Source of the DNA: Alphaproteobacteria bacterium | Lineage (GTDB): Bacteria > Pseudomonadota > Alphaproteobacteria > Elsterales > Elsteraceae | Assembly (NCBI GenBank): GCA_004292755.1 | Contig: RDXE01000042.1 | Location: forward strand, 1-64,000 | Reading direction: 5' to 3' | Length of the DNA stretch: 64,000 bases | In this document: piece after piece, positions 2,147 through 26,090 of the stretch | Layout: each line of letters begins with the position of its first letter | How positions within the stretch are numbered: the stretch's first letter is position 1 | Made by a program: the position numbers and the translations under genes | The notes under the pieces: model-generated | The model's database searches: none | What the model saw: the letters and a program-made list of their open reading frames with translations, nothing else | Told to the model about the DNA's origin: nothing

Positions 2147-5100
2147 CTACAGGGCCCGCAAGGCCCGCTCGGCCACCGCCAGTTTGGCGAGGTCGGGCGT
2201 GCCACGCTCCAAGTCGGCAATCATGGTCTCCAAATCCTCCAGCGCGTCGCGCCGATGGCTGGTCCAGTTTGCGTCAGCCAATTGGCGGGCGGCCAAGGCT
2301 TCCTGGTGGCGGGCAAGGTCATCCAGCAGGCCCGCGCGGGCCGCTCGTGACCAGCGGTCGCGCGGTTCAATCCGCGCGGCCAGGGCCTCCAGCCGGGTGA
2401 TGCCGCAGCGGACCGCGACCTCATAATAGGCCCGACCCGCCTGCTCGATATCGCCACCGGCTTGCGGGGCAAGCTTCAGGATATCGAGGTTGCCCGCCAA
2501 TTCGCCCAGCGACGCCACCGTGAGGGCAAGACCCGGCGGTAGCCCCTCTTCGTCCGGCACGGCGAAGCCGGGGCGGATGCCGGGCAACCGCTCGATCAAG
2601 CGCTGCACCGGCTCGCCAAAGGCAACCAGATGGTCGCCGATGGTGCCAACATCGGGCTGCTTCACCAACCAGCGGATGGCGATGGCCGCGGCCTCGGCAA
2701 CATCGCGGAACAGCGCGATCTGGCGGCTGGCGGCGCACCGGCCCGCGGCCACCACGCCATCCAACGCCTCCAGCGTCGCCCACACGCGCGACAAGTCGAA
2801 CAGCTCGCGGATCACGACAAAGGCTTCGGCCAGTCGCGCAGCGGGGCAGGCGGTGGTCGCCTCCAAGGCAATCATCGCCGACGGACCCAAGCGGTTCAGC
2901 ACCTCGTTGGTGATGCCGGTCGCAATGATTTCCCGCCGCAGCCCATGGGTTTGGATGGCTTCGGGGAAGCGATCACGCAATGGCTGCGGGAAGTAGGCCG
3001 TCAGATCGGCGCCGAGGAACGGATCATCGGGCAGGTCCGATGACAGGATCTGGCGATACAGCATGTTCTTGGCATAGGCCATCAGCACGGCCAACTCGGG
3101 CCGAGTGATTCCGCCGCCAGCGCTGCGCCGCGCCTCCAGCACCGTGTCGTCTGGCAGGAACTCGATACCACGCTCCAAGCCGCCATCCTGCTCCAGCCGC
3201 CGCATCATCTGGATGGCATCGTCCACCGCCTTCGCCCCGGCATGCTCGGCCATGGAGAGCGAGAGGGTCTGCAGGTAATTGTCGCGCAAAACTTCGTGCG
3301 CCACTTCCTCTGACATCTCAGCCAGAAGAGCCGTGCGGCCATCCTCATCCAATTGACCGCGGCCAACGGGGTCGGTCAGCAGGATTTTGATGTTGACCTC
3401 ATGGTCCGACATATCGACGCCAGCAGAATTGTGAATGGCGTCAGTGTCCAGGCGGACCCCGTGCTGGGCGGCTTCGATGCGTGCCTTCTGGGTCATGCCA
3501 AGGTTGGCACCCTCGCCAATCACGCGGGCGCGCAGGTCCGGGGCATCGATGCGCAACCCGTCATTGGCGCGATCCCCTGCGTCGGCATGGCTTTCATCGC
3601 TGGCCTTGATGAAGGTGCCGATACCGCCGAACCACAACAGATCACACTCCAGCCGCAGCAGCGCCTGGATCAAGTCAGCCGGGGTGGCGGTGTCGCGGGT
3701 GAAGCCCAGCAGGGCCTTCACTTCGGCCGTCAACCGCACCGACTTGGCGCTGCGCTCCACCACCAATCCACCCGGCGACAGCACCGCTGGGTCATAGTCG
3801 GTCCAGGCAGACTTCGGCCCACGGAACAACCGCTGGCGCTCAAGGAAGGAGGCAGCCGGGTCTGGATTTGGGTCCAGGAAGATGTGCAGGTGGTTGAACG
3901 CCCCCACCAGCTTCAAACGGTTGGAGTGCAACAGGCCATTGCCGAACACGTCCCCACCCATGTCGCCGATACCAACGACGCGGATGGCTTGGGTCGCTAG
4001 ATCGACGCCCAGCTCCCGGAATTGCCGCTCCACGGCGACCCAGGCGCCGCGGGCGGTGATACCCTGCTGCTTGTGGTCATAGCCCTTGGAACCACCGGAG
4101 GCAAAGGCATCGCCCAGCCAGAAGCCATAATCGGCTGACACGCCATTGGCGATGTCGGAGAAGGTGGCTGTGCCCTTGTCGGCGGCGACCACTAGGTAGG
4201 GGTCATCGCTGTCATGGCGCACCACCTCCGGCGGATGCAGGATGTCAGCCCCGCGCCGGTTGTCCGTCACATCCAGCAAGCCGCGCATCAAGGTTTTGTA
4301 GGAGTGAACCACCCGCTCCTGTTGGGCGGCCCGACCAGCCTCTGGCGGGGCCGGGCGCTTGACGACAAACCCGCCCTTGGAGCCAACCGGCACGATCACG
4401 GCATTCTTCACGTTCTGGGCTTTCATCAGACCCAGAATCTCGGTGCGAAAATCCTCCCGCCGGTCGGACCAGCGAATGCCGCCACGCGCAACCCGCCCAC
4501 CGCGCAGGTGGATCGCCTCGGTATCCGGAGCATAGACCCACACTTCCACCAGCGGGCGCGGCTTCGGCAGCTCCTCAACCCGGCCACTATCGATCTTGAA
4601 CGACAGATACTCTTTCGGCGCGCCGTCGGCGCCGGGCTGGAAGGCATTGGTCCGCAAGGTCGCTTGGATCAAGTTGACGTAGCGGCGCAGAATACGGTCC
4701 TCGTCCAGGACGCTTACTTGATCCAGGCGGTGCTCAATCTCCACCGTCAGACCAGCGCTCGCCACTTCCCGATCACCAGAGATCGCTGGGTCAAAGCGCG
4801 TGCGGAACAGGCTGACCAACAACTCCGTGATGGCCGCATGGCGTGCCAGCGTCGCCTCAATGTAACTCTGGGAGAAGGTGAAGCCTGCCTGCTTTAGATA
4901 CTTGGCATAGGCGCGCAGCACCACGATGTCGCGCCACTCGAGCCCAGCCAGTAGGGTCAAGCGGTTGAAGCCATCCTCCTCGGCCTTGCCCGTCCAACCG
5001 GCAAGGAAACCCGCTGCGAACCGCTCTGCCACTTCGGCCGTGGGATGCGGACCAACCAAGCGGCAATCGAAATGCTGCAACCAGATGGTCTCTCCACTGC

Positions 5101-7018: not shown

Positions 7019-8101
7019 GTGCGGCAACGGCTGTTGGGCCATACTGGCCTTCGGGTTTCAGAACTCTGTCTCGGCACCATGACGTTTGGAGAGGATTGGG
7101 GCTGGGGCGCCGAAGCCGCCGAGTGCGGGCGCATCTTTGACCGCTTTGTCGAAGCAGGCGGTACCTTCTTTGACTGCGCCGATGCCTATGTGGGTGGCAA
7201 GTCCGAGCGCATTCTGGGCGACCTGATCAAGCGGGACCGCCATCTATTCGTTGTTGGCACCAAGTATGGCACCGCCACCGCCAATGACTTTGCGCGCTCC
7301 GGCTCCAGCCGCAAGACTTTGACCCAAGCACTTGACGCCTCGCTGAAGCGGCTGGACACCGATTACATCGATGTCTACTGGCTGCACTTTGCCGATGGTC
7401 ACACCCCGATGGAAGAGATCATGCGCGCCCTGGATGATGCTGTGCGCATTGGCAAGATTTTGTATATCGGCCTCTCCAACACGCCAGCTTGGTGGGCAGC
7501 CCGGGCTGATCTTCTGGCGGAGTTGCGCGGCTGGACCCGCGTGGCGGCGTTGCAGGTTGATTGTTCCCTGGTTGAACGCACGGCGGAACGGGAGTTGCTG
7601 CCGATGGCGCGCGGGCTGGACATCGGCGTGCTGGGTTTCGCCCCGATGGGCGGTGGTGTGCTGTCCGGCAAGTATTTGGCCCCGCTGACGGGCCCCAGCC
7701 GCCAGCCCGGTGCAGGGGCGTTCAGCCAGTTGAAACTACAAATCGCCGCAACGGTCGCCGCCCATGCGCAGACACTGATGTGCTCCCCTGCGCAATTGGC
7801 GCTTGCCTGGGTGCTGAAGTACTACAGCGGCGGCGTGATCCCGATTGTGGGGGCACGGAGCGAAGACCAAATTCTTGACAATATCGGTTGCCTGTCCGTC
7901 GACATCCCCGAGCCTGTGGCCCAGCACCTAGCCCAGATCACCGCCCCCAGCCTCGGTTTTCCCCACGAGTTGTTGAACAGCGACTTGGTCCGCAATCTCG
8001 CCACCGGCTGGCAACACGACCGCTTCACCTCCCTTCTTGAGCTCAGACCCACCGAGATTGTCGCGGTATCCCTTGGCAAGGGTTACCTCTCGGGCTGCTA
8101 G
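7019..8101 (+). CDS. Aldo/keto reductase
   Basis: NAD(P)H-dependent oxidoreductase of the AKR TIM-barrel family, 360 residues. The N-terminus LGHTGLRVSELCLGTMTFG is typical. The catalytic set is visible as D and Y in DCADAYVGGKSE, K in VVGTKYGTA and H in DVYWLHFADG. A GTG start at 7019 is chosen for the AAGGGAGG Shine-Dalgarno six to seven bases upstream; an ATG at 6986 is in frame but has none. The last 58 codons overlap, tail to tail, the 3' end of the minus-strand pentapeptide/cyclase gene. The C-terminus runs past the usual AKR end (GFPHELL then VRNLATGW), so the overlap looks like loss of the original stop. The substrate is unknown. Confidence 0.9.
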   Translation: MRQRLLGHTGLRVSELCLGTMTFGEDWGWGAEAAECGRIFDRFVEAGGTFFDCADAYVGGKSERILGDLIKRDRHLFVVGTKYGTATANDFARSGSSRKTLTQALDASLKRLDTDYIDVYWLHFADGHTPMEEIMRALDDAVRIGKILYIGLSNTPAWWAARADLLAELRGWTRVAALQVDCSLVERTAERELLPMARGLDIGVLGFAPMGGGVLSGKYLAPLTGPSRQPGAGAFSQLKLQIAATVAAHAQTLMCSPAQLALAWVLKYYSGGVIPIVGARSEDQILDNIGCLSVDIPEPVAQHLAQITAPSLGFPHELLNSDLVRNLATGWQHDRFTSLLELRPTEIVAVSLGKGYLSGC

Positions 8102-9658
8102 CACGTACTTGCCGCGCAACTCCACGATCAACTTCAGACGGCGACTGATGAGGATTTCGCCAGGGTTGGCGCTGCTTTGAAGGCGAACAGCCTCAATAAA
8201 CGGGTCGCCCTGGTATGCTATGCGTTTCTCGGCTGTATTGTATTCCGCCCGCACCGTGCCAAAGCTGACACCACAGCGCACACTAATGCGCGCCTCTGCC
8301 AAAGCGGCCATTGCACTGCGGCAAAAGTCGATAGCGCGAAACAAGTCATAGTGCCTATCTGGATCGTCACCAGGTTGGCGGACGGTCTCCGGAAAAACTT
8401 GGACGAAGCTATCGCCCTCCGTCTTCGGCGGGTTTTGCTTTTGCTCAGCTTGTTTCATGTAGTTGCGCAGATGATTGGCCAAGATTTTTTGCATACCTGA
8501 AACCAGGGTCGACCGCTCGTCCGGGCGCAGATTCGAGAAACCAACCAAGTCAAATGCTGCGACAGCCCCATGTTTATTGTCTTCTTCACCATCAAAATGG
8601 GATCTAAGAAAATCCTCAACCTGTGCGCGGTAAAGCTCTTGATAATCTAATAGCTCTGATTTTTCTCGAATAGCTTGATCTAATTGCTTCTTCAGCTCCT
8701 TCAGCATTTGAGTGGCGGCGGTGAGTTCCGATTTATCTGAGCTGCCATTGTCCTCATCCGCCTCAACTGGGGCCGCGGAATTGCTTTCCAAGCGCAGTTT
8801 GAATTGCGTGTTGCCCTTGCTGGTCTCGACAGTCTCGATGCCGATATTGACACTCGGGTGGCGTTGCTTGATCCGACCGATCACGGCATTCAGCATTGTG
8901 ACGGATTCCGTATCCAATCCGCCCTTGTGGTCCAGCACCACAACGCTGTCGGAGCTGTTCTTGCGCTCAAATTCGCCTTCGCGGTAGCGCTGCTCAGTCA
9001 CTCCTGTCTGCCCGATGTAGCTGATCGTGCAGCGAATGCCGCGGATCTTCCAGCCGTGGGTCTCCAGGCGCCAAATCTTGGCTTGCTCCAGACTACCAGC
9101 CGACAAATCGGCATGCTGCATCGAGGCACCGCGCAAATCCGCGCCGAAAAAGTTGGCCCCCGGCATTTGCGCGCGGTCAAAGTTGGCGAACACCAGGATC
9201 GCCTTCTGGAAGTTCAGCTCCTTGCCTTTGAAGCGATGGAAGCTCGCGCGCGAGAAATCAGCTTCCGCGAACAACAACCCCTGCCCCACCCCTTCGGCGA
9301 ACGAAATCCCAGCGCCCCGCGCATGGCTGAAATCAACCGCCGCCAGGACCGAGCGGTCGAACCGGCAGTCGGTCAAGTCGGCGCGGTTGAAGCGCACCCG
9401 GCGGAAGCGCGACCCGCTGAAGTTTGCCTTGTATAGCAGCACATCGGAGAAATCGGCTGCATCAAACAAACAGTCGGAAAAATCATAAAATGACAGATTC
9501 AGATTTGACGGAATCTGCACCCCGGCCAGATTCAGAATGCCGCTGCGATCCGCCTTCTGGCGCATCTGCAACCGAAACTCGTTCCACCGCACCTGACCTT
9601 CCGCGATGCGACGGGACATCGCGGTCGCGGCCTGCACATCAAGGCGTTCGGTAGACAT
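7928..9658 (-). CDS. Pentapeptide-repeat protein fused to a class III nucleotide-cyclase-like domain
   Basis: A 576-residue fusion. Residues about 35-215 are A(D/N)LXX-type pentapeptide repeats forming a right-handed beta-helix (for example FSDCLFDAADFSDVLLYKAN). After a linker, about 295-345 is a charged coiled coil (LKELKKQLDQAIREKSELL). Residues about 360-510 resemble the class III adenylate/guanylate cyclase fold: AAFDLVGFSNL with metal-type Asp near 370, TEGDSFVQVF with a second Asp near 416, and GDPFIEAVRLQSSANPGEIL. The Asn that stabilises the transition state is replaced by Ile (Arg kept), so activity is uncertain. No signal peptide or membrane segment is seen. AAGGTG precedes the ATG. 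Base composition is lower in GC in the middle (about 8.35-8.75 kb). It could be an active cyclase, or a pseudo-cyclase sensing nucleotides. Confidence 0.75.
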   Translation of the reverse strand: MSTERLDVQAATAMSRRIAEGQVRWNEFRLQMRQKADRSGILNLAGVQIPSNLNLSFYDFSDCLFDAADFSDVLLYKANFSGSRFRRVRFNRADLTDCRFDRSVLAAVDFSHARGAGISFAEGVGQGLLFAEADFSRASFHRFKGKELNFQKAILVFANFDRAQMPGANFFGADLRGASMQHADLSAGSLEQAKIWRLETHGWKIRGIRCTISYIGQTGVTEQRYREGEFERKNSSDSVVVLDHKGGLDTESVTMLNAVIGRIKQRHPSVNIGIETVETSKGNTQFKLRLESNSAAPVEADEDNGSSDKSELTAATQMLKELKKQLDQAIREKSELLDYQELYRAQVEDFLRSHFDGEEDNKHGAVAAFDLVGFSNLRPDERSTLVSGMQKILANHLRNYMKQAEQKQNPPKTEGDSFVQVFPETVRQPGDDPDRHYDLFRAIDFCRSAMAALAEARISVRCGVSFGTVRAEYNTAEKRIAYQGDPFIEAVRLQSSANPGEILISRRLKLIVELRGKYVLAAREVTLAKGYRDNLGGSELKKGGEAVVLPAGGEIADQVAVQQLVGKTEAGGGDLG

Positions 9659-14411: not shown

Positions 14412-15659
14412 TTAGGTTTTTCGATGGGGTATCAACAAAGCTGAGTTATTGATCTGATTTGTTACGTTCCCAGCAGTAGCACCAGACTCATAGTCGGGTT
14501 CAGTTGCTGATCTGTCAATTTTGAGTGTTTCGCGATATGTTTTCAGATCTTCAGCTCTTTCAGCGAGCTTTTGAGAGTAAAGCTGGTTCTCTTCAAAACT
14601 CATAATGAACCAAGGCGGCATTATGTAGTCTCGGAACATCTGTAATAGATCCCTGCAATAGGTGTCGATCTTGCCTCTTTGGCCGCCTGGTTCAAAGAAA
14701 AACCGGTCGTGTATTCCTTCTATTTGTGATGCATGGTCTGCAATACTGTGAGCGTGACGTACCGTCTGCTGGAAGTGTTTTATATACGCATCAAAATCCA
14801 CGTAGAATACTGGGTACCTGCTTTTTTCAAGTGCGCCTTTCAACTCGACTGCCTCGCGGACCTTTATCGGTAGAAAAAGTTGATTGAGAGTATCACGATC
14901 ATCGGGATTTAGTTTTTCTTTCTGGAGTCCAAGTTGGTTCAGGAGCGCCGCAACTTCCAGGGAGATAACCAGCCGAGACGGCTTCGCAAGACCACAGAGT
15001 CGGAACCCGATGTCTATCTGGGGACCGATATAGTCAATTCGAATAAATTGCCGCATCTCGCGAGGATTCTTGTGATATTCTTCAAGTAGGAAATAGTTAG
15101 TCTCGATTTGATAATCAGAAATGTCTCGCGGATATTTATCAAATACACTTGCATCATGAATCACCACAATCTCTCGGTTTAGAACCGGAAACTCGGAGCA
15201 CCAGATAGCACCCTTCAAGTCAAGTCCCATTGCCCTCAGCTTTAAGGATAATCTACAACTGTAGATGCATTTTGCAAAGCAATGGACAGCGTAGTATAAT
15301 ATCATTATCTCGGTGGCAATCTCTCCTTGCGTGCTGTTTGATTCTGGTTTCTGTAATTCTATCTTAAAAATCAGTTCATCTCCATTTGTTTTCCATAGTA
15401 CAAAAACAAAATTTCGAAAATCCGCTGGAACCGGATGTATCGCCTTAATCACGTGATCGTCTCTGAGCTCACGAACTATCTCGGCTAGCATCTTCGGGAA
15501 GTCGATATAAAATTTGTTGACTAAATCCTCCCACCAAACTTTCTCACCGGGAGCATCTTCCCCTCGCTTCTGTTTCTGCTTGTACTGAGTTGAGCCAACG
15601 AGATCGACGCTGAAGAAGACTACTAGTTTCGGTTGAAGGTGTGAGGGAATGCCAATCAT
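14412..15659 (-). CDS. Class III nucleotide-cyclase-like protein paired with ImmA/IrrE peptidase
   Basis: A 415-residue soluble protein in an AT-rich block. Three segments match the class III cyclase fold: LVVFFSVDLVGSTQYK with metal-type Asp19, WKTNGDELIFKIEL with Asp94, and GPQIDIGFRLCGLAKPSRLV (residues 212-231), where Asp216 and Arg220 take the places of the catalytic Asn/Arg pair. This overall look, a single cyclase domain with IDIGFR, resembles the cyclases of bacterial pyrimidine cyclic-nucleotide (Pycsar) systems; that link is inference. Residues after about 290 form a helical tail of unknown fold. The start lies 14 bases after the peptidase stop, so the two are co-transcribed. The Shine-Dalgarno is weak. 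Base composition and codon use differ sharply from both flanks, indicating acquisition by transfer. Confidence 0.65.
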   Translation of the reverse strand: MIGIPSHLQPKLVVFFSVDLVGSTQYKQKQKRGEDAPGEKVWWEDLVNKFYIDFPKMLAEIVRELRDDHVIKAIHPVPADFRNFVFVLWKTNGDELIFKIELQKPESNSTQGEIATEIMILYYAVHCFAKCIYSCRLSLKLRAMGLDLKGAIWCSEFPVLNREIVVIHDASVFDKYPRDISDYQIETNYFLLEEYHKNPREMRQFIRIDYIGPQIDIGFRLCGLAKPSRLVISLEVAALLNQLGLQKEKLNPDDRDTLNQLFLPIKVREAVELKGALEKSRYPVFYVDFDAYIKHFQQTVRHAHSIADHASQIEGIHDRFFFEPGGQRGKIDTYCRDLLQMFRDYIMPPWFIMSFEENQLYSQKLAERAEDLKTYRETLKIDRSATEPDYESGATAGNVTNQINNSALLIPHRKT

Positions 15660-15673
15660 TTTTCTGAACCCAA

Positions 15674-16264
15674 TTAGAGCCCAAGGGTTTCCGCTCTGAT
15701 TTCAACTGCTTGAGTCGAGACAGAAAAAAACTTTGCGACAGCAACAACATCTCCGCTAAATAATTGCCATTTCTGCTTGAATAGCTCAGCAGGCATCAGA
15801 AAAGCAGCAGCAAAGAAGTTTGCTTCCTGCTCCTCTCGTTGAGAGCCTAATCGCCGAGCATGCATAATCGGCAGTTCACCAGGGTTGCCTTGACGCTTCT
15901 GCTTGATACCGTAAATGTAATGCAAACAATAGTGTCCCAACTCATGCGCTATTGTGAATCGGTCACGAACATAACTTCCGAAGGACGGTAGAAAAATTGA
16001 AAAATCATCGATGCCGCGCACGACCAATGAGCCTGACTCTTTCTGAGCGTCAACCGGCTCTTCTTCTCGAATCTGCCGCGCGGACCGGTAGCGAATTGTA
16101 CCACCGAGCGAGCGCACCAGTTCGTGGAGGTCGGTTGTTTCGTCCACATTCCAGGACTGAGCAACCTTTTCCGCGAGCGCTTCAATGGATTTGCGCGGCC
16201 AGCGGACCGGCTCAGCCCAGACCTGCTTCCGCTCACTGTTGCTGCGAACCTCGGCGGTCTCCAT
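15674..16264 (-). CDS. ImmA/IrrE-family metallopeptidase
   Basis: Zinc metallopeptidase, about 196 residues, with FTIAHELGHYCLHY (the HExxH motif) and the downstream EEQEANFFAAAFLMPAE segment whose Glu is the third zinc ligand, the standard ImmA/IrrE signature. Relatives cleave phage or stress repressors. No helix-turn-helix is attached here. The C-terminus (VVAVAKFFSVSTQAVEIRAE) matches the helical end seen in the family. The ATG at 16264 or a GTG at 16273 could be the start; neither has a strong Shine-Dalgarno. It is the first gene of a two-gene unit with the cyclase-like protein and has its own promoter. It sits behind xseA in AT-richer DNA. Confidence 0.85.
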   Translation of the reverse strand: METAEVRSNSERKQVWAEPVRWPRKSIEALAEKVAQSWNVDETTDLHELVRSLGGTIRYRSARQIREEEPVDAQKESGSLVVRGIDDFSIFLPSFGSYVRDRFTIAHELGHYCLHYIYGIKQKRQGNPGELPIMHARRLGSQREEQEANFFAAAFLMPAELFKQKWQLFSGDVVAVAKFFSVSTQAVEIRAETLGL

Positions 16265-16299
16265 CTCACCCACTCACGCGACGGCGTTGACGAATCGGC

Positions 16300-16327
16300 A
16301 GTATAGCCTGCGTATTGCCTCCGACAA
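16300..16327 (-). promoter_or_regulatory. Sigma70-like promoter for the peptidase/cyclase pair
   Basis: On the minus strand TTGTCG (16327-16322) and TATACT (16305-16300) are 16 bases apart. This puts a start site about 20-30 bases before the peptidase start. The 149-base gap to xseA is AT-rich, unlike the other junctions here, supporting independent expression of the pair. Confidence 0.45.
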
Positions 16328-24945: not shown

Positions 24946-25268
24946 TGCTGATCGCGGTCAGGCGGCATCACTTAGCCGCGTGGTGATACCCAAAAAGACA
25001 CAAAACTAGACTGGGCAGCAACCCGCTAAGGGGGTGCTTCTGCGCGCGCTGTCGAATCCAACAGTCTGTTAGCAGAGACTGTCAACGGCCTCACCCGAGC
25101 TGAGGTCATCCATCGCCGCGGACCCTGGACGGGCCAGCGAGGTCATTGACCTCGTGAACGTCGCGTTGATAGATTTTGTTTCTATTTATCAGCAGCGTGA
25201 GTCAATCGGTGTCAATCTCTGGACCTATACCGAAGAGCGCTCCAACGCCTGCCTGGAGGAGCAAAGGC
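24946..25268. other. Intergenic gap with a possible promoter
   Basis: No gene is seen. TTGACC at 25146-25151 followed 16-18 bases later by GATAGA/TAGATT is a plausible promoter for the downstream low-GC gene. An imperfect hairpin (AGCAACCC with GGGGTGCT, near 25018-25040) could end the kinase transcript. The gap marks the switch to lower-GC DNA. Confidence 0.35.
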
Positions 25269-26090
25269 ATGTCGTCTTCCTCAAAGAAAAAAGCCTCTGG
25301 CGAACCCAGGACTCGCAAAATGGATGAATCGGAATCTCTCGTTGAACAGTATCTGAGAAGTTTTGGCTACGAGGATGTGGTCCATGAACCCAACGGCAAC
25401 GTGCCGCCCGATTTTGTCGTCGACAAACGCATCGCGATTGAAGTACGTCGCCTAAATCAGAACATCGACGACGGTACCGGCAAAGGGCGACGTGGCATCG
25501 AAGAAGCAGAGAAACCGCTCGGGGACTGGCTTCGCAACTATCTTTCTAGCTATGGACCAGGCGATGTCTCTGATCAGCGCTGGTTTGTATGCTGTAGCTT
25601 CAGACATCCGCGTCCGGAATATTCGAATCTTAAAGAACAACTAGATGATTTGCTCCGCACGTTCATGGATAATCCTGACCGGCAGCCGCTCGAAAGGGAC
25701 CTGACCGTGGGTATGAGGTTCAAAGTATCGCTGATAAAAGGATCTACGCAACAGCAGAACTTTTTCACTTTGGGAGGACTTGGTGCCGAGGAGGCTGGTG
25801 GCTGGGTGCTCAGCGAGATTTATGAAAATCTGCGGCACTGTATCAAAGAAAAGGAGCGCAAGATTTCCAAGCACCGCGGGAAATATCCTGAATGGTGGCT
25901 CATCTTGCCCGATCACATCGGTCATGGTTTAAGTGACTTGAGCCGAAATCAATTTCATGACAAATTCAGCATAGAAACCGGTGGCTTCGACAAGATTATT
26001 CTGATTAATCCGCTGAACGCCGCACGCGCCTTCCAAGTACACCCTCGCCCGACTCTTCCGATCAGGTACGCTCAATCCGAATCGAAGTAA
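25269..26090 (+). CDS. Hypothetical protein with PD-(D/E)XK nuclease-like core
   Basis: 273 residues from an ATG preceded by GGAGG. The segment PPDFVVDKRIAIEVRRLNQ (about residues 42-60) has the D...E-x-(K/R) strand pattern of PD-(D/E)XK nucleases, with the usual Lys replaced by Arg, and follows a helix (ESLVEQYLRSFGYEDV) typical of this fold. The remainder is aromatic-rich and unassigned. Composition is lower in GC than both flanks, there is no partner gene, and neighbouring gaps are long, all suggesting a transferred orphan, possibly a remnant of a restriction or defence locus. Nuclease activity is inference. Confidence 0.6.
   Translation: MSSSSKKKASGEPRTRKMDESESLVEQYLRSFGYEDVVHEPNGNVPPDFVVDKRIAIEVRRLNQNIDDGTGKGRRGIEEAEKPLGDWLRNYLSSYGPGDVSDQRWFVCCSFRHPRPEYSNLKEQLDDLLRTFMDNPDRQPLERDLTVGMRFKVSLIKGSTQQQNFFTLGGLGAEEAGGWVLSEIYENLRHCIKEKERKISKHRGKYPEWWLILPDHIGHGLSDLSRNQFHDKFSIETGGFDKIILINPLNAARAFQVHPRPTLPIRYAQSESK

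Follow-up and report, generated by a model that had tools for sequence, protein, structure and literature searches.

A peptidase–cyclase gene pair of phages, plasmids and chromosomes, probably an undescribed nucleotide-signalling module

Introduction

To our knowledge, class III cyclase immunity has so far been known with membrane and TIR effectors. In canonical class III cyclases, an Asn residue assists catalysis. In CBASS, the cyclases are CD-NTases, and the peptidase CapP cleaves the neighbouring HTH repressor CapH; M78 peptidases with an HExxH motif are also found in the IrrE/PprI-DdrO and ImmA-ImmR systems. PprI (IrrE) combines a peptidase with HTH and GAF-like domains, and its activation by ssDNA requires the GAF-like domain (PMC10904395). 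In the Pycsar cyclases (PycC), a bulky residue is located two positions before the first metal-binding Asp (F100/D102 in EaPycC and F60/D62 in AnPycC; PMC11224242). The DUF2652 proteins are described as a predicted class III branch lacking the Asn and keeping the Arg (PMC4886424).

The present analysis concerns two adjacent genes, encoding an M78 zinc peptidase and a 415-aa protein, in a stretch of 64,000 nucleotides (the window) of contig RDXE01000042.1 from an alphaproteobacterium of the family Elsteraceae. The pair is similar to Pycsar in the class III cyclase fold at its core, in mobile carriage and in the presence of PycTM as a neighbour in three lineages, but differs from it in the constant M78 partner, the usual lack of an effector, the canonical Lys/Asp adenine pair and the Asp in place of Asn. 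In addition, the bulky pyrimidine-site residue of PycC is replaced with Ser17 in 86 of 88 family members, and none of 77 members matched a PADLOC cyclase model at E ≤ 1; judged by sequence, the 415-aa family is not Pycsar. With CBASS CapH/CapP the pair would share an M78 peptidase linked to immunity by nucleotide signalling, whereas its cyclase has a class III fold instead of being a CD-NTase, no HTH gene as a counterpart of CapH adjoins the window pair or recurs at the family loci, and CapP-type proteins are larger than its peptidase. Unlike IrrE/PprI-DdrO and ImmA-ImmR, it has neither a repressor partner nor a GAF-like domain, the partner of the peptidase being a cyclase-family protein. The fold and catalytic positions are those of class III adenylyl cyclases (CyaC, Rv1900c), of which Rv1900c also lacks the Asn, but the family is missed by PF00211, has Asp at the Asn position throughout and has a gene partner. 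The DUF2652 proteins are similar in the missing Asn and retained Arg but form a separate Pfam family, unmatched by the 415-aa family, and no M78 partner is reported for them in the accessible part of the source (PMC4886424). No description of a peptidase–cyclase pair was found in the open full-text literature, outside which preprints and most subscription papers lie. It was concluded that the pair is probably an undescribed nucleotide-signalling module, likely directed against viruses and related to Pycsar in logic.

Results

The gene pair in the window

The M78 (ImmA/IrrE) peptidase gene (199 aa, GTG start; 15674..16273, minus strand; Pfam PF06114, E = 4.2e-18; PADLOC capP, 2e-23) is followed after 14 bases (15660–15673) by the gene of the class III nucleotide cyclase family protein (415 aa; 14412..15659, minus strand), assigned from the ORF, the AF2 model, the Foldseek match to CyaC and phrog_18024. 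The GC content is 0.52 in the peptidase gene and 0.44 in the cyclase gene versus 0.64 in the window and 0.71 in the adjoining xseA. A sigma-70-like promoter, TTGTCG-16-TATACT, is located 5′ of the peptidase gene (16300..16327, minus strand) as a consensus match only; it was the single match within 280 bases, with 0.1 expected from shuffled sequences. The description in the sequence-only reading of two AT-rich genes 14 bases apart with their own promoter is in agreement with these data. No HTH gene was found beside the pair among the window ORFs. In the relatives, xseA does not adjoin the flanking membrane gene, and no clean empty site was shown; the pair occupies a synteny break.

Fold of the 415-aa protein

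Single-sequence profile searches of Pfam, NCBIfam, PADLOC and PDB with the 415-aa protein gave no match, nor were relatives revealed when genome and viral contigs were scanned with the single sequence; the family was opened by tblastn against plasmids and phages. The sole profile-library match was phrog_18024, a PHROG without assigned function (E = 4.6e-27). Pfam PF00211 did not recognise the family (best value 0.04, in one of 77 members), and the family profile gave one weak match among PDB sequences, the Rv1900c adenylyl cyclase (E = 0.14), with the catalytic helix in register. The AF2 model built from the single sequence had a pLDDT of 34.5, and that built with 77 family sequences had a pLDDT of 83.1 and a pTM of 0.84. 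The best 50 Foldseek matches of the latter in the PDB were all class III cyclases, with CyaC in first place (E = 1e-7, probability 1.0) and Anabaena PycC at rank 37. The class III cyclase fold, on which the sequence-only reading had staked its interpretation beforehand, was confirmed in the predicted structure. The cyclase domain would span approximately residues 9–288, followed by a helical C-terminal region (289–386) and a disordered tail; the sequence of this helical extension of about 100 residues is poorly conserved.

Active site of the cyclase family

Residue conservation was counted over 88 non-redundant family members. Asp19 at metal site 1 (FSVDLVGST; 15603..15605, minus strand) was present in 88/88 members, and the segment Lys90-x-x-Gly-Asp94 (WKxxGDE; 15378..15392, minus strand), with the base-recognition Lys and the metal site 2 Asp, had the Lys in 87/88 and the Asp in 88/88. 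The segment DYIGPQIDIGFR (15000..15035, minus strand) contains Asp209 at the adenine Asp position (−7; 85/88, Glu in the other 3), Asp216 at the place of the catalytic Asn (88/88) and Arg220 (88/88). Lys274 of LKG, at the phosphate-binding Lys position (14838..14840, minus strand), was Lys in 78 and Arg in 9 of 88, and Y282 and P283 were found in all 88. It should be noted that the family scan patterns contained two of the motifs, whereas D19, K274 and YP were in no pattern, and one pattern was enough per locus, so that the remaining conservation is largely unbiased. By reference to class III enzymes, we take D19 and D94 to bind metal, K90 and D209 to specify adenine, D216 to sit where the transition-state Asn would, and R220 and K274 to bind phosphate.

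All three class III motif regions described in the sequence-only reading, with the Asp for Asn and the retained Arg, were recovered in this way, whereas its suggestion that this Asp might indicate a dead cyclase is not favoured: the substitution is invariant in the family and the other catalytic residues are complete, and it is thus a family rule and not decay in the window's genome. The Asn is not strictly required in class III cyclases, since Rv1900c carries His at this position. An invariant Asp beside otherwise complete catalytic residues argues for a putatively working but altered active site; given the replacement of Asn in every member, a slow or altered reaction, or none at all, may result. 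Because all active-site residues are on one chain, a homodimer would hold two complete sites, and the Lys/Asp pair suggests ATP as the likeliest substrate.

The M78 peptidase

The HExxH zinc motif of the window peptidase (residues 110–114; 15932..15946, minus strand) was identified from the translation and family conservation, and Glu148 at the third zinc ligand position (15830..15832, minus strand) was present in 85/85 family members. The domain, the motif and the third Glu ligand, all present, place the protein in ImmA/IrrE (M78), as the sequence-only reading had it. H110, E111, H114 and E148 were all kept in 83/85 family peptidases, whose median length was 183 aa. The exceptions, at loci L054 (5440–5961) and L033 (5357–5974), are independent losses of HE in the motif, and the adjacent cyclases keep their active site. 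The only PDB match of the window peptidase was CapP 7t5t (E = 0.006), and capP was the nearest PADLOC model. No ligand-binding domain was recognised in the window peptidase. The short M78 form without a GAF-like domain should be controlled in another way, for which a partner in trans would be a natural switch; the cyclase would be this partner.

Recurrence and hosts

Relatives of the 415-aa protein with 22–29% identity were found by tblastn on plasmids of Leptospira, Mycolicibacterium and Tistrella and in the C. difficile phages phiCD27 and phiC2 and the Leptospira phage LE1, and two genomes from the window's family also contained relatives, with three copies in one. In every one of these plasmids, phages and genomes, an M78 gene was directly upstream on the same strand. 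A profile search revealed 150 relatives in GTDB genomes, 80 of which were kept for locus analysis, and 36 in viral contigs. The M78 gene was directly upstream at 65 of the 80 genome loci, the overlap often being 4, 11 or 1 bases. The other 15 comprised 13 loci of one Caulobacterales/Phenylobacterium clade as well as L077 and L054; at L054, the gene upstream is a relic of M78 that lacks HExxH. Hosts of paired loci belonged to Pseudomonadota, Actinomycetota, Verrucomicrobiota, Planctomycetota, Campylobacterota and Cloacimonadota, to which Spirochaetota and phages of Bacillota are added; the pair travels among phages, plasmids and chromosomes across at least eight phyla. Occurrence of the same order in unrelated genomes puts the gene arrangement far beyond chance, and the recurrence in unrelated hosts expected by the sequence-only reading was thereby observed. 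Among 387 genomes of the window's class, chosen regardless of the pair, the cyclase family was found in 13 (3.4%, patchy), with M78 upstream in 9 of the 13. No fusion of the peptidase with the cyclase was seen in the family.

Several loci have individual features. In C. difficile phages, the M78 gene, a 528-aa cyclase extended by a long additional C-terminal region and a convergent PycTM gene lie between endolysin and integrase genes (L009, phiCD27 gp36–gp38), and the same set was found in at least 23 prophage contigs (L104–L126); visual inspection had suggested a Nudix-like tail in phiCD27 gp37, for which Pfam gave no support. At L156 (genome G227), a divergent member whose cyclase motif set is intact is preceded not by M78 but by a gene of 241 aa with no Pfam match (2147–2872, minus strand), perhaps an alternative partner. 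In Aquabacter (L073, 5980–7347), the cyclase-family protein is fused at the C-terminus to an Xre-type HTH (HTH_3, E = 4e-13), a single case. Loci L059 and L003 are on one contig of 13,896 bases publicly titled Candidatus Paceibacterota, yet the genome belongs to the window's family, and the submitter's label therefore looks wrong.

Evolutionary history of the pairing

In the tree of 98 members, four changes between paired and solo state were found, one of which (L092) was a contig-edge artefact; the paired state looks ancestral. The Caulobacterales solo clade (support 100) is nested within the paired tree, so the peptidase was most likely lost there, and these solo cyclases keep the catalytic residues. 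Seven of the solo genes (L019, L023, L031, L032, L034, L037, L040) adjoin, with conserved synteny, an rsh (relA/spoT-type) gene, identified from sequence by eye; as a side reading, the copy beside rsh may be domesticated. The window copy does not cluster with copies from its own family, and its branch is long, which makes the placement unsure. In 81 pairs, peptidase distances were correlated with cyclase distances (Mantel r = 0.72, 0/2000 permutations); among pairs below 40% identity, r was 0.49.

Neighbouring genes and defence context

Among the 142 immediate neighbours of about 75 pairs, PycTM was the commonest family. It was adjacent, above the Pfam cut-off, at four loci (L049, L069, L079, L009) of three lineages. 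The order PycTM, M78, cyclase on one strand was found in Methylomonas (L069) and Methylomicrobium (L049), with unrelated flanking genes; in the Aureimonas prophage (L079, L159), PycTM was divergent; and in phiCD27, PycTM (gp36) was convergent, 63 bases past the cyclase. Inspection of the ORFs at the PycTM loci by eye revealed no further cyclase-like gene. The background was 10 PycTM genes in the 387 genomes of the window's class, of the order of 1 in 10^5 genes, and the chance expectation was about 0.001 PycTM among the 142 neighbours, with the proviso that other phyla may carry more; adjacency in three independent lineages is far above background. PycTM is absent beside the window pair and from the window's whole genome, and it was present in trans in 4 of 47 pair-bearing genomes without a cis copy. 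Since most pair-bearing genomes lack it, PycTM is an optional partner, the core being the pair.

Apart from M78, no neighbour family recurred beyond clade level among the family loci. Nor did any HTH gene recur across them, which rules out, as a family feature, the local repressor that the sequence-only reading had considered as the peptidase substrate. The number of PADLOC model families matched was 67 for nearest neighbours, 92 for second neighbours and 67 for a control set from pair-bearing genomes; the count for nearest neighbours was no higher than that for the control and does not demonstrate a general defence-island enrichment. The family identities differed (PycTM, restriction, Druantia- and Borvo-type names near the pair versus generic kinase-like models in the control). 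The link to cyclic-nucleotide defence raised in the sequence-only reading is strengthened by the adjacent PycTM in three lineages, a general enrichment near the pair not being seen.

Discussion

In the preferred reading, which we hold tentatively and at somewhat less than even weight, the locus would be a mobile two-gene nucleotide-signalling module with Pycsar-like logic and an obligate M78 peptidase, switched by the cyclase, as its core output. The 415-aa protein would act as a homodimeric class III nucleotidyl cyclase, as its fold and full set of active-site positions suggest, and would make a nucleotide signal upon a trigger that is most likely the entry of a phage or other mobile element. 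The peptidase, held idle until then, would be switched by the cyclase, either by contact or through the product, and would then cleave a protein as the core output; as no third gene recurs, the pair itself should supply the basic output. PycTM, observed adjacent in few lineages, may provide a further added output. The module reading draws on the fixed gene order with short or overlapping junctions at 65 of 80 genome loci as well as in phages and plasmids, on the ancestral pairing, correlated distances, class III fold and both active sites intact across phyla, and on the PycTM adjacency, unrelated cassette flanks, phage and plasmid carriage and patchiness; the proposed defence role draws on the carriage, the patchiness and PycTM. 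The more specific claim of a new class of cyclic-nucleotide immunity, in which the signal of a distinct, Asp-based class III branch directly activates an M78 protease effector, the response to infection would be targeted proteolysis and pores formed by PycTM would be an add-on in some lineages, is considered unlikely.

The direction of control may also be reversed: the peptidase would sense damage or infection and cleave either a cyclase inhibitor or the cyclase itself, for instance within the helical C-terminal region, turning the cyclase on or off, and the nucleotide would then act on PycTM where present and elsewhere on unlinked effectors. This alternative, rather unlikely in our estimation, is in line with the upstream action of M78 proteases on regulators in CapP/CapH and PprI/DdrO (PMC10904395), and the poorly conserved C-terminal extension is consistent with it. 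PycTM cassettes retain the peptidase, so PycTM does not simply replace it, and Caulobacterales cyclases keep their catalytic residues after peptidase loss. The two partners without the Glu/His of HExxH (L033, L054) and the peptidase-free Caulobacterales cyclases indicate that proteolysis is not always required, which fits either such a gate or a structural role of the peptidase; however, most loci are without a recurrent cis effector, and PycTM is rare in trans.

It seems improbable that the cyclase-like protein has no catalytic activity and serves as a nucleotide-binding sensor controlling the peptidase by contact. The Asp for the transition-state Asn in all members would agree with such a sensor, and protein–protein control suits a peptidase without a ligand domain, but both metal Asps, the Arg and the Lys, whose role is in catalysis and not in binding alone, show little or no variation across eight phyla. 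Pseudo-enzymes usually lose catalytic residues. The His of Rv1900c at the Asn position likewise speaks against a sensor, and an adjacent PycTM implies a nucleotide signal. A toxin–antitoxin or maintenance pair of mobile elements, with a peptidase toxin, a cyclase-like antitoxin and no nucleotide signalling, is very improbable: a full cyclase active site would not be required in an antitoxin, and the Caulobacterales cyclases stand alone without a toxin partner in the locus, although two small mobile genes with overlapping junctions, the fusion of L073 to an Xre-type HTH and the M78 genes known in toxin–antitoxin pairs with Xre partners (PMC10538038) are compatible with it.

If the pair is a signalling system, class III cyclase immunity would gain a protease among its outputs or gates, and a function would be given to a family that no profile library names, an unannotated PHROG being its only entry. 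The family makes the effect of Asp at the Asn position on the class III reaction testable; the presence of the pair in the well-known temperate phages LE1, phiC2 and phiCD27 bears on what prophages do for their hosts, and the stand-alone Caulobacterales copy beside rsh could be studied in Caulobacter.

Two other genes of the window deserve mention. A second cyclase-like gene (7928–9658, minus strand), in another AT-richer stretch (GC 0.54), encodes 576 aa; pentapeptide repeats (PF00805, E = 2.7e-16) make up its N-terminal part, and at the C-terminus it has a Guanylate_cyc domain above the Pfam cut-off (25.0 versus 21.9 bits), in which the Asn position also looks replaced. An AT-rich orphan ORF (25176–26090, plus strand; 304 aa, no Pfam match) lies in a kilobase with a GC content of 0.51 and was possibly acquired.
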